From NCBI RefSeq assembly GCF_947494755.1, contig NZ_CANLVZ010000006.1, forward strand, positions 186,001 to 250,000: 64,000 nucleotides of DNA. The letters are read 5' to 3'. The notes below the pieces were generated by a model, which saw only the letters and a list, made by a program, of their open reading frames with translations, was not told the origin of the DNA and ran no database searches. Source of the DNA: an uncultured Tateyamaria sp. Lineage in GTDB: Bacteria; Pseudomonadota; Alphaproteobacteria; Rhodobacterales; Rhodobacteraceae. Positions 23,900-28,001 of the stretch are shown piece by piece. Every line of letters starts with the position of its first letter. Position 1 is the stretch's first letter. The position numbers were made by a program, and so were the translations under genes.

Positions 23900-24355
23900 C
23901 TAGTCGGATGCCTCCGCGTTTTCCAAAGAGGCGACCCGCTCGACCACCCGGCCCAACAAGGACAGCAACGTGGTCTGATCCTCGTCGTCGAGCGCAGACA
24001 GGAACAGGCGCATATTGTGCAAATCCTGGTTGTGGATCGCATTGGCCAGCTGCGCGCCCTCGGGCGTGAGGCTCAGATCGTAGGCCCGCCTGTCCGTCTC
24101 GCTTTGGGTGCGCGACACCAATCCCCGCTTCACCAGACGCGCGATTACGCTGCTGGCCGTCGTTGGCACGATGCCAAGCGTGCCGGCCAATTCGGACGCG
24201 CGCACAACCTGCTGTTCGCGCAACATCCCCAAAGCCGTGAAATCAGAGAGATTGAAGCGGATCACGTGCTGATGCTCGGGCGAGGTCAGCTCGCTGACAA
24301 GCATGACCCGCAACAACGTGCCCACGTACCCCAAAAGTTCGAGTTCTTTATCCAT
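23900..24355 (-). CDS. MarR family transcriptional regulator
   Basis: A 151-residue winged-helix regulator of the MarR family. It shows ALGMLREQQVVRASELAGTLGIVPTTASSVIARLVKRGLVSRTQSETDRRAYDLSLTPEG (about residues 45-102), which is the DNA-recognition helix followed by the conserved DxR wing. The ATG at 24355 is preferred over a TTG 36 nt upstream because it gives a standard-length protein. It is divergent from the SRPBCC-like gene, and two palindromic boxes lie in the shared promoter region, which suggests autoregulation and control of that neighbour. The ligand is unknown. Confidence 0.9.
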   Translation of the reverse strand: MDKELELLGYVGTLLRVMLVSELTSPEHQHVIRFNLSDFTALGMLREQQVVRASELAGTLGIVPTTASSVIARLVKRGLVSRTQSETDRRAYDLSLTPEGAQLANAIHNQDLHNMRLFLSALDDEDQTTLLSLLGRVVERVASLENAEASD

Positions 24356-24408
24356 GGCGGTTTTTCTGACCAACGCCCCTTGAAGTGGCAAGAGCCAATT
24401 ATATTTAC

Positions 24409-24440
24409 TACGATACTCGTATATTTTAATACGATAATCG
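24409..24440. promoter_or_regulatory. Tandem palindromic operator between marR and the SRPBCC-like gene
   Basis: Two boxes, TACGATACTCGTA (24409-24421) and TACGATAATCGCA (24430-24442), share TACGATA-C/A-TCG. The first is a TACGA-TAC-TCGTA palindrome; the second contains CGAT-A-ATCG. Their starts are 21 bp apart, two helical turns, in an AT-rich stretch between divergent genes. This is the expected layout for MarR dimers. Confidence 0.6.
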
Positions 24441-24458
24441 CATCAATGGAGATCGACT

Positions 24459-25082
24459 ATGCCTCTGCGCCCTCTTATCGCGACCCTTTCCGTCACCGCC
24501 GCGCTGTCTGTGGCAGCCTTCGCTGGTGTCTCTCCAATGCCGACACCCAACCTCGCATTCGCTCAGGCCACGTCCGCTGCAGAGATCGCACCGCCCCCAC
24601 CATTGGCCGCCGAAAACAGCTATCTGACCAACACCGAGACCGCGACATTCCGCGGCACCATCGCAGACTTTCGCGCCTTCGGAGAGGAGAACCCGGTGAC
24701 TGACTTTGTTGCCGTGACCGATAGCATTCCGCCGATCGTGAACATCACCGTGCTCTCGGGCACGTGGCCCGAGGTGGGTGCGGTGCGCCGTGTCGACCTA
24801 GAAGGTGGCTATCATGTCCATGAGCGGGTGCTGGAAAACTCCGCCAACCGCTTTGCCTATCAGCTCTGGGATATCACCGCGCCGTCGGGCCGCGTTGTCG
24901 ATCACATTATGGGCAGTTTCGACTACACCCAGACCGGCGATCAGGTCAGAGTTGAATGGAACTACAACATCAAGCCCAACCTGTTTCTGGCGCGCCCGGC
25001 AATCCGCCGCTATCTGAGGCGCGATTTCGGCCCCTTCATGGAGGCCGGGCTGACCGGGCAGGTCGCAGCCTATCAACGGTGA
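24459..25082 (+). CDS. Exported SRPBCC-like protein
   Basis: A 207-residue predicted periplasmic protein. A signal peptide (about residues 1-36, with hydrophobic core LIATLSVTAALSVAAFAG and a likely AFA cleavage site) is followed by a domain resembling the START/SRPBCC (polyketide cyclase-like) fold: AVTDSIPPIVNITVLSGTWPEVGAVRRVDLEGGYHVHERVLENSANRFAYQLWDIT, then VRVEWNYNIKPNLFLARPAIRRYLRRDFGPFMEAG. Such folds bind hydrophobic ligands. It is divergent from a MarR repressor and is its most likely target. An enzymatic role is unknown. Confidence 0.65.
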   Translation: MPLRPLIATLSVTAALSVAAFAGVSPMPTPNLAFAQATSAAEIAPPPPLAAENSYLTNTETATFRGTIADFRAFGEENPVTDFVAVTDSIPPIVNITVLSGTWPEVGAVRRVDLEGGYHVHERVLENSANRFAYQLWDITAPSGRVVDHIMGSFDYTQTGDQVRVEWNYNIKPNLFLARPAIRRYLRRDFGPFMEAGLTGQVAAYQR

Positions 25083-25233
25083 CCAAACGCGGCTCCGGAC
25101 ACGGGGCCGCTCACACATTTCAGACCCCTCATTTTCGCCCTGCCCGTGGGCCCGCCTCGCTCCTCGGCGGAAACCCACCCGCGGCTGATCGGGCAACTTG
25201 ACGCAGTATACAACCGCATACCGTCCGTGTACG

Positions 25234-25263
25234 TTGACAAGTGACCCAGACTCGCGTCACAAA
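25234..25263 (+). promoter_or_regulatory. Candidate promoter with GTGAC-N10-GTCAC inverted repeat upstream of scoA
   Basis: TTGACA at 25234-25239 is a consensus -35 box. Just downstream, GTGAC (25241-25245) and GTCAC (25256-25260) form an inverted repeat with a 10-nt spacer across the position where the -10 spacer would lie. A CACAAA at 25258-25263 is a weak -10. The repeat could be an operator for the CoA-transferase/LOV operon. Confidence 0.35.
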
Positions 25264-25310
25264 TTTTCTCACAGGTGCACGGCCTCCTTGAGAGGTGTCC
25301 AGGAGTATTT

Positions 25311-26006
25311 ATGAAAAAGATCTACGGCTCTGCTTCCGAGGCGCTGGACGGGCTTTTGTTCGACGGCATGTTCATTGCGGCGGGCGGGTTCGGCCTGTGC
25401 GGCATTCCCGAATTGCTGCTGGATGCGATCAAAGAGGCGGGCACGAAGGATCTGACATTTGCCTCCAACAACGCTGGCGTCGACGATTTCGGCATCGGCA
25501 TTCTGCTGCAGACGCGGCAGGTCAAAAAGATGATCTCGTCCTATGTGGGCGAAAACGCCGAGTTCATGCGCCAATACCTGTCGGGCGAACTGGAGCTGGA
25601 GTTCAACCCCCAGGGGACGCTGGCCGAACGGATGCGCGCGGGCGGCTGCGGCATCCCCGGCTTCTACACGAAGACCGGCGTGGGCACCGTCATTGCCGAG
25701 GGCAAGGAACACAAGGACTTCAACGGCGACACATATATTATGGAAGAAGGCATTTTTGCCGACCTCGCCATCGTCAAGGCGTGGAAAGCGGACGAAACCG
25801 GCAACCTCGTGTTCCGCAAGACCGCCCGCAACTTCAACCCGCCCGCAGCCATGTGCGGCAAGGTCTGCGTCGTTGAAGTGGAAGAGATCGTGCCGACCGG
25901 CAGCCTTGATCCCGACACCATCCACCTGCCCGGCATCTATGTACACCGCTTGATTCAGGGCGAGCACGAAAAGCGCATCGAACAACGTACCACCCGCGCG
26001 GCCTGA
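25311..26006 (+). CDS. scoA: 3-oxoacid CoA-transferase subunit A
   Basis: Alpha subunit of a succinyl-CoA:3-ketoacid (or acetoacetate) CoA-transferase, which activates ketone bodies such as acetoacetate from polyhydroxybutyrate breakdown. The 231-residue protein has [25 protein letters not shown] (near residues 18-42), the ASNNAG loop and the conserved [22 protein letters not shown] segment (here [18 protein letters not shown], near 112-129). ATG at 25311 has AGGAGT 5 nt upstream. It is separated from its partner subunit gene by the LOV-sensor gene, with 11-nt and 9-nt gaps. Choice between sco and ato types is not possible by eye. Confidence 0.92.
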
Positions 26007-26017
26007 CGGAGACAGCA

Positions 26018-27046
26018 ATGCCCGACATGCTTGAGCAACTTCTGGGTCAGGACATGATCTTTGACGGTTTCAACCGTGCCCAGATTGCTATTGTCGTGAC
26101 CAACCCGTATCTTGAAGACAACCCGGTCGTTTACGTAAACGAAGCGTTCACCCGCTCCACCGGCTACGCCCGGACCGCTTCGATCGGGCGCAATTGCCGG
26201 TTCCTGCAAGGTCCCGAGACATCCAAGGTGCACGTGGACAAACTGCGCCGCGGGATCGAGAACGAAGAGACCACGACGGTCGACATTATCAACTACCGCG
26301 CAAATGGGGAAAAGTACCTCAACCGGCTGGTCGTCTCGCCCCTGTGTGACGACACCGGCAAGTTGCAATACTTTATCGGCATCCAGAAAGAGCTACGCGA
26401 GAGCGACATGGATGCCAGCACCGAAGAAATAAACGCGGCGCTGATGGAGATACAGAACCGGGTGGCGACGGACCTGTCCATCGTGATCGGCATGATCCGC
26501 CAGCAATCGGGTAGCACGTCCGTCCCCGAGGACTTCATGGCGCTCAGCCGGCGCATCGAGACTCTCCAGCTGTTGTACGAAGAAATGAAACTGTCGGATC
26601 GCCAGTCCAATCGCAATCGCGTGGAAATGGGCAGCTATCTGTCGCGCCTGTCGGCTGCGATTGCGCACATGATGGGACGCTCCGGCATTCGGATGACTAT
26701 CCAGATCGAACCGCTTGAGGTCCCTATTGAAACGGCGACCCGCGTTGGTCTGGTCTTGTCCGAACTTTTGACGAATGCGTTTCAGCACGCCTTTGACCGG
26801 TTGGACAACGGCCTTGTCGAAGTCCGGATGAGCCGCCTGAGCGCGGGCGGTTTGCGTCTGATTGTGTCTGATGATGGGGTTGGGATCCCGAGTGGGATGG
26901 CGTGGCCAGATACGAGTACAATTGGGGGACGCATTGTCGGCGGATTGATCGAGGGACTTGAGGGGACGCTGCATCTGGGTCGTGGTGCAGCTGGCAGTTT
27001 TGTGACCATAGATGTGCCTGCGGGCGCGACACTTGTTGATGAATAA
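26018..27046 (+). CDS. LOV-domain photosensor with HisKA_2-like kinase module lacking the H-box histidine
   Basis: A 342-residue soluble protein. The N-terminal LOV domain (about residues 13-125) has the photoactive cysteine Cys60 in GRNCRFLQG, plus the flavin contacts Asn92, Asn102 and Gln123 expected of a blue-light FMN sensor. Residues 137-195 align with the dimerisation/H-box of HisKA_2/HWE kinases, but where the family has E-I-H-H-R-V-K-N-N-L this protein reads EIQNRVATDL (144-153), so Gln146/Asn147 replace the phosphoacceptor. The ATPase part looks intact: N-box ELLTNAFQHAF (249-259), G1 DDGVGIP (285-291). It lies between scoA and scoB with GGAGA as ribosome site. It may signal without phosphotransfer or phosphorylate another residue. 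Confidence 0.88.
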   Translation: MPDMLEQLLGQDMIFDGFNRAQIAIVVTNPYLEDNPVVYVNEAFTRSTGYARTASIGRNCRFLQGPETSKVHVDKLRRGIENEETTTVDIINYRANGEKYLNRLVVSPLCDDTGKLQYFIGIQKELRESDMDASTEEINAALMEIQNRVATDLSIVIGMIRQQSGSTSVPEDFMALSRRIETLQLLYEEMKLSDRQSNRNRVEMGSYLSRLSAAIAHMMGRSGIRMTIQIEPLEVPIETATRVGLVLSELLTNAFQHAFDRLDNGLVEVRMSRLSAGGLRLIVSDDGVGIPSGMAWPDTSTIGGRIVGGLIEGLEGTLHLGRGAAGSFVTIDVPAGATLVDE

Positions 27047-27055
27047 GGAATAAGC

Positions 27056-27682
27056 ATGCCCTGGGATCGCAATCAAATGGCCGAGCGCGCAGCGCAGGAA
27101 CTCGAAGACGGATGGTACGTGAACCTTGGCATCGGCATCCCGACTCTGGTGTCCAATTACATCCCCGACGGAATCGAGGTGACGTTGCAATCTGAAAACG
27201 GGATGCTGGGCATGGGCCCCTTCCCCATCGAAGGCACCGAAGATCCCGACCTGATCAATGCGGGCAAACAGACGATCACCGAATTGCCCCAGACCGCTTA
27301 TTTCGACTCCGCGCAGTCCTTTGGCATGATCCGCGGGGGCAAGATCGCGATGGCGATCCTGGGCGCGATGGAAGTGGCTGAAAATGGTGACCTCGCCAAC
27401 TGGATGATCCCCGGCAAGCTCGTCAAGGGCATGGGCGGTGCCATGGATCTGGTAGCGGGCGTGGGCCGTGTGGTCGTCGTCATGGATCACACGAACAAGC
27501 ACGGCGACAGCAAAGTTCTCAAGGAATGCACTCTGCCCCTCACCGGCAAATCAGTCGTGGACCGCATCATCACCAATCTTGGCGTGATGGATGTCGTGGA
27601 GGGCGGATTGCGCATCGTCGAAACGGCGGATGGCGTCACAGAGGACGAATTGCGCGCTGCGACTCAAGCCACCCTTGTCTGA
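27056..27682 (+). CDS. scoB: 3-oxoacid CoA-transferase subunit B
   Basis: Beta subunit of the CoA-transferase, carrying the catalytic glutamate that forms the enzyme-CoA thioester. The 208-residue protein has [30 protein letters not shown] (residues 8-37) and the active-site motif [13 protein letters not shown] near 47-59, where Glu of SENG is the nucleophile; [27 protein letters not shown] is also typical. ATG at 27056 has AAGGA upstream, 9 nt after the LOV gene stop. The catalytic pair scoA/scoB is complete despite the gene between them. Confidence 0.93.
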
Positions 27683-27960
27683 GCCTGAAATCGCCCGCGA
27701 GGATGTTGTGAAGAAAGGGCAATATGCCCTCGTCATCGCCGGGCATACGGCCAACGTCGTCCATCATGTCAGCCAAGACCCGGATCGCCGATCATGCCGC
27801 AGTGCCGGACGCGCTGCTTGGCACGGGCACGGGTCTGCGGCGGGTTGAAAGGCTGGTCGCAGATGCGCTCGCCGAAGGGTGGAAGATCGTTCCCTTGTGC
27901 CCTTTCGTGAAACGGCAGCGCGCCAAACACCCCGAATGGGCAGACGCGTTCGACGTCTGG
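27676..27960 (+). pseudogene. Frameshifted YjdJ-type GNAT acetyltransferase remnant
   Basis: Two reading frames together match one small acetyltransferase. The first (from a TTG at 27676 overlapping the scoB end) reads EDVVKKGQYALVIAGHTANVV, like the N terminus of YjdJ-type GNAT proteins. The second frame, +1 relative to the first and entered near 27770-27785, reads RIADHAAVPDALLGTGTGLRRVERLVADAL and GWKIVPLCPFVKRQRAKHPEW, the acetyl-CoA loop and the hallmark IVPLCPF. The second frame has no own start with a ribosome site, and it runs on past the normal end into the convergent transglycosylase gene. A single-base indel is the simplest explanation; a sequencing error is the alternative. Confidence 0.65.
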
Positions 27961-28001
27961 CCCGCTCTATTATATATAGTGGACGCCAAGAAGGCGCGCG
28001 G

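Follow-up and report, generated by a model that had tools for sequence, protein, structure and literature searches.

A LOV-domain gene between scoA and scoB of a Tateyamaria species as a probable ldaP ortholog in an inherited operon slot

In an uncultured Tateyamaria sp., the genes for the two subunits of 3-oxoacid CoA-transferase enclose a gene for a LOV protein, which is most probably an ortholog of ldaP and codes for an antirepressor of PpsR residing in an inherited operon slot; the binding to PpsR is predicted by orthology. The embedding of a blue-light LOV sensor gene between these subunit genes had already been recognized in a preliminary description of the analysed stretch of DNA (here called the window, 64,000 nucleotides), and is confirmed by the gene order and by the residues of the LOV domain. 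Proteins of this kind are already known, and a subgroup of EL346-like proteins without the histidine expected in such kinases has been noted before (PMC10359499). What is new relative to the literature searched is the conserved position between the sco genes, the age of this position relative to the loss of the histidine, and the reciprocal losses of LOV and sco genes: no mention of ldaP between scoA and scoB was found in this literature, and none of its neighbouring genes in term searches of the main text of the LdaP paper.

The locus and its LOV protein

As described beforehand, scoA, the LOV gene and scoB are located on the same strand (+) with intergenic gaps of 11 and 9 nt, and both the LOV gene and scoB possess a ribosome-site-like sequence of their own. 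The features, in coordinates of the window, are as follows.

25311..26006, + strand: scoA, subunit A of 3-oxoacid CoA-transferase, 231 aa (TIGR02429, 234.5 bits, cut-off 128.5; CoA_trans)
26008..26011, + strand: GGAG, ribosome-site-like, preceding the LOV gene (read from the sequence)
26018..27046, + strand: LOV gene, likely ldaP ortholog, 342 aa, with LOV domain, DHp-like helices and ATPase-like domain (EL346 fold)
26075..26395, + strand: LOV domain, residues 20-126 (PAS_9; flavin-site residues conserved)
26195..26197, + strand: codon of Cys60, the adduct cysteine (kept in 79 of 79 nearer relatives)
26447..26671, + strand: HisKA_2-like helical region, residues 144-218 (Pfam HisKA_2, E 5.3e-5)
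26456..26458, + strand: codon of Asn147, which replaces the phospho-accepting histidine (alignments to EL346 and to relatives)
26717..26914, + strand: core of the ATPase-like domain, residues 234-299 (HATPase_c_2, E 3.8e-8; five residues conserved in 79 of 79)
27045..27049, + strand: AAGGA, ribosome-site-like, preceding scoB and overlapping the LOV stop codon (read from the sequence)
27056..27682, + strand: scoB, subunit B of 3-oxoacid CoA-transferase, 208 aa (TIGR02428, 329.9 bits, cut-off 243.55)

The LOV core had been regarded as canonical, which holds for the nearer relatives, where Cys60, Asn92 and Gln123 are kept in 79 of 79 proteins and Asn102 in 78, but not for some of the 18 more distant rows, for example with Leu at position 123 in L094, L096, L097 and L098 and no Cys at the adduct position of L097. 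The C-terminal HisKA_2 and HATPase domains of the protein had been left out of the preliminary description. The closest solved relative is EL346 of Erythrobacter litoralis (PDB 4r3a), matching residues 18-336 with an E value of 1.5e-81, and the same structure is the top Foldseek match (TMq 0.73) of the AlphaFold model (mean pLDDT 78), so the likeness comprises the full-length sequence as well as the fold. EL346 is an active kinase with His142 as phospho-accepting residue (PMC10890935), whereas the window protein carries Asn147 at the aligned position of its H-box (EVQHRVKNHL in EL346, EIQNRVATDL in the window protein).

LdaP (Dshi_1135) of Dinoroseobacter shibae is a protein of 338 aa with the motif GRNCRFLQ at positions 58-65, including Cys61, and a demonstrated FMN photocycle, which has Arg148 where the histidine would be expected and shows no autophosphorylation; it binds the repressor PpsR and acts as a dark-active antirepressor of the photosynthesis gene cluster (PMC10890935). 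The same published features (338 aa, GRNCRFLQ at 58-65, Cys61, Arg148) are found in a protein of the sampled genome G035, whose gene is also located between scoA and scoB. The window protein resembles LdaP in its architecture of LOV, DHp-like and CA domains, in the GRNCRFLQ motif, in the replaced histidine and in its phototrophic host containing PpsR; it differs in having Asn147 in place of Arg148 and shares 56% identity with the G035 protein, the identity of the PpsR proteins of the two genomes being 48%. Another blue-light flavoprotein acting as PpsR antirepressor is AppA of Rhodobacter sphaeroides (PMC10890935). It differs from the window protein by its BLUF domain with FAD and by its fold. 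The only BLUF match in the genome of the window lies in an open frame of 147 aa, which we take to be too short for AppA.

The protein might also be read as a light-activated histidine kinase that still functions in a two-component system, as it contains HisKA_2 and HATPase domains with the N-box and G1 motifs of HisKA_2/HWE kinases; the respective ATP-site residues (Glu249, Asn253, Asp285, Gly287, Gly289) occur in all 79 nearer relatives as well as in 18 of the 19 members of the His-less clade described below, Asn253 being lost in L088 (G230). This reading is extremely improbable, because the H-box histidine is absent from the window protein and from every one of the 19 clade members, and because LdaP itself does not autophosphorylate; an active two-component kinase was rejected for want of the histidine. 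Beside relatives outside the sco position, no receiver domain indicating a response regulator was detected at E 1e-5 among ten neighbours at five loci. We infer that the kinase part now serves as a protein-binding module and not as a kinase.

Distribution of the gene order and separation of LOV and sco genes

A search across genera, as proposed in the preliminary description, shows that the scoA-LOV-scoB order is far more than a matter of chance. In a family sample of 394 genomes, of which 77 gave search matches at E 1e-15, many of them partial or distant, the embedded order was found not in a single strain but in at least 27 genomes, all bearing different genus codes; this number is a lower bound, because only the stronger, full-length matches of the family search were examined. 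A chance or single-strain insertion is ruled out by these genera. Altogether, 97 LOV loci were analysed, 48 from sampled genomes (30 from the initial family search, including that of the window, and 18 fetched later) and 49 from a contig collection, the latter fetched with the window protein and therefore biased toward near relatives and partly overlapping with the 19 His-less proteins. At 68 of the 97 loci, scoA and scoB lie on either side of the LOV gene and share its direction; the gaps do not exceed 433 nt and have medians of 11 and 15 nt. Among these embedded loci, LOV identity is as low as 37% in L095, while ScoA and ScoB remain above about 80%. Ten of the 29 loci without embedding represent distant relatives (L091-L094, L096, L099-L103).

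The wider order dprA-topA-(scoA-LOV-scoB)-SLT-cpaB-cpaC recurs in many of 32 compared loci. Between topA and scoA, the window contains genes for a MarR-type regulator and a Polyketide_cyc2-family protein (23900-25082); the former is present in three of the 32 loci, all titled Tateyamaria (L033, L034, L061), and the latter in L061 only. Another housekeeping-type operon containing a LOV kinase is represented by L109:6798-10089 (G286) and L090:3212-6490 (G284), where a His-bearing member of the family lies between Colicin_V (CvpA-like) and glutamine-amidotransferase-domain (PurF-like) genes, all in one direction.

The LOV and sco genes have parted company in both directions. The LOV gene has topA and the SLT gene as its neighbours, with scoA and scoB missing, at L046, L055, L059, L063, L064, L065, L081, L104 (G187) and L107 (G311), and likewise without sco, but with further genes before the SLT gene, at L105 (G177), a basal branch of the tree where loss and original absence of sco are indistinguishable. 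Remnants of scoA were detected at L064 (strong), L046 (E 6e-8) and L065 (E 6e-4); the matches at L055, L059 and L081, with E values of 0.17-3.2, lack significance. No scoB scar was found downstream of the LOV gene at the sco-less loci, where blastn gave two weak matches beyond scoB. Intact scoA is present elsewhere in nine of the 11 genomes whose LOV site has no sco; G311 and G418 have no ScoA match at 1e-10, the contig of G418 beginning at the LOV gene. As judged from dN/dS values of 0.04-0.10 in three pairs of sco-less loci, the LOV gene is under purifying selection there; the values for the window gene and three close relatives beside sco are 0.06-0.11, with some dS values being high in both sets.

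In the opposite direction, G240, a member of the same genus as the window, retains intact scoA and scoB with only a LOV remnant between them (L151:3391-3524), consisting of the beginning of the gene plus a segment that corresponds to residues 318-341. Since this genome has retained pufL/M, LdaP is dispensable in it. ScoB is encoded in 29 of 30 hand-picked genomes without a LOV match, in 24 of them with scoA within 38 nt; the remaining five comprise G240 with its remnant, two genomes with gaps of 222 and 263 nt, and G072 and G020 with other genes in between. The latter include a GSCFA-family gene (Pfam match in G072, similarity in G020), which indicates that the scoA-scoB gap accepts unrelated genes. 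The GSCFA-family gene occurs in the gap of three genomes (L149:2099-5284 in G072, L150:1919-5291 in G020, L173:738-4078 in G187), in L149 beside a further unnamed gene. In L135 (G003), a small open frame with roughly 80 codons by visual count takes up much of the 263 nt between scoA and scoB.

These data bear on the original proposal that the sensor feeds light or redox input into the use of acetoacetate and polyhydroxybutyrate (PHB), controlling the CoA-transferase either by direct contact with ScoA/ScoB or by light-set expression. Such control would agree with a long-lived gene order, which is kept in at least 27 of the genera sampled and even where reaction-centre genes are lacking, but we consider it very unlikely. 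The CoA-transferase is probably the wrong target, because the LOV gene is kept intact where sco is gone, two genomes have no ScoA match at all at the threshold used, G240 keeps sco with the LOV gene reduced to a remnant, and the gap also houses other genes. Moreover, the expected partner of a probable LdaP ortholog is PpsR, and Table 2 of the LdaP paper, which represents the enriched part of a full co-elution list of 260 proteins, contains PpsR and neither ScoA nor ScoB (PMC10890935).

Loss of the histidine, phototrophy and age of the slot

The relatedness of the LOV proteins was analysed in a careful tree of 41 proteins, from which the H-box columns and the distant L097 and L098 were left out; the equally distant L099-L103 are in no tree. 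All 19 His-less proteins of the sampled genomes form one clade (bootstrap/SH-aLRT 97/95 with the H-box columns excluded), and 17 tree rows including the window protein (L001) and that of G035 (L013) group at 95/87. In this tree, the histidine state changes once and the sco context at least four times. Parallel losses of the histidine had been expected beforehand and were rejected, as both trees show one change.

Possession of the His-less protein goes along with phototrophy. Every one of the 19 His-less genomes possesses the reaction-centre family PF00124, compared with seven of the 16 in which all relatives are His-bearing, the 16 being counted without five far outgroup rows and the two rows dropped; the Fisher p value of 1.6e-4 is not corrected for kinship, the single clade amounting to one event. 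Over the whole family sample, PF00124 exceeds the cut-off in 166 of 394 genomes, and most of the phototrophs do not contain such a LOV protein. PpsR is over the cut-off in 18 of the 19 His-less genomes, including that of the window, and in eight of the 16 His-bearing ones, the exception among the former being G264, a genome of 77% completeness. All 49 loci of the contig collection are His-less, and 47 of them belong to genomes with reaction-centre genes, the other two being titled MAGs. In the genome of the window, pufL/M are present and ppsR adjoins bchG.

The sequences have drifted where the histidine was lost. The mean entropy of the H-box is 1.43 bits in the His-less clade vs 0.55 in the His-bearing rows, whereas the corresponding values are 0.98 vs 1.27 for the LOV domain, 1.17 vs 1.57 for the CA domain, and about equal (0.96 vs 0.91) for the N-box. 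Position 147 is occupied by N, S, R, D, A, G or E in the clade, positions 150 and 151 drift as well, and His152 is replaced by Asp in 17 of the 19 members. The histidine would have been lost once in the ancestor of the clade; afterwards, the H-box would have drifted, in contrast to the LOV and ATPase-like domains with their continued conservation.

His-bearing members also occupy the sco slot in genomes with neither reaction-centre genes nor PpsR over the cut-off (G048, G149, G170, G272, G291 and G018). PpsR can therefore not explain the original insertion, which seems to predate the role as LdaP. From these sequence comparisons, the slot looks older than the loss of the histidine, a His-bearing LOV kinase presumably having entered the scoA-scoB position first. 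The odd position of the gene seems to be one inherited from long ago and not to signal light control over the enzyme.

Predicted function and role of the operon position

As an ortholog of LdaP, the window protein would bind the PAS-domain repressor PpsR in the dark and thereby lift the repression of the photosynthesis gene cluster; in blue light, the flavin-cysteine adduct would form, LdaP would let go of PpsR, and the cluster would be shut off. In the LdaP pull-down, the raw peptide counts for PpsR are 7 in white light, 7 in blue light and 1 in the dark (Table 2), and the light/dark argument of the authors rests on bait amounts and a western blot (PMC10890935). Of the 11 PpsR-type TGT-N12-ACA sites in the window, none is located between 24000 and 28500, so there is no hint of autoregulation by PpsR.

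The position between scoA and scoB may provide co-expression with a housekeeping enzyme, but the analysis gave no indication of an action of the sensor on it. A more far-reaching version, compatible with the identification as LdaP, is that the protein is translated from a scoA-ldaP-scoB message and that its amount, and with it the photosynthesis genes, follows the carbon state driving the sco promoter. Metabolism would then inform photosynthesis, opposite to the direction proposed originally. This dosage effect, which we regard as unlikely, would fit the tight same-strand packing seen at the embedded loci and the shortened frames with similarity to scoA at L064 and L065 (E 6e-4 for the latter), which still stop 11 nt before the LOV gene. 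It would also fit a consensus scan of 24900-28000 for sigma-70-like promoters, with none found within genes vs 1.3 expected by shuffling, but the scan covered one promoter type and found none upstream of scoA either; furthermore, in several lineages the site contains only the LOV gene, with sco located in another part of the genome. The combined claim that LdaP arose from a sco-embedded LOV kinase by a single loss of the histidine, which made it a kinase-dead switch binding a repressor in descendants that are phototrophic in all 19 sampled cases, and that the operon still gates its dosage by the flow of ketone-body/PHB carbon, is regarded as unlikely.

With the identification as a probable ldaP ortholog, an odd gene order becomes a named regulator, and blue-light control of photosynthesis genes by LdaP, so far shown in one strain, is predicted across about twenty genera of the family. 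The clade offers a clear example of a sensor kinase that became a non-kinase switch when the histidine was lost, and His-bearing relatives for comparison occupy the same slot. The locus also cautions that insertion between the genes for two subunits does not imply an action on the enzyme they form. If carbon gating were true, marine phototrophs would use a single message to combine carbon supply with blue light, and the His-bearing version in non-phototrophs would represent an undescribed light-carbon sensor.
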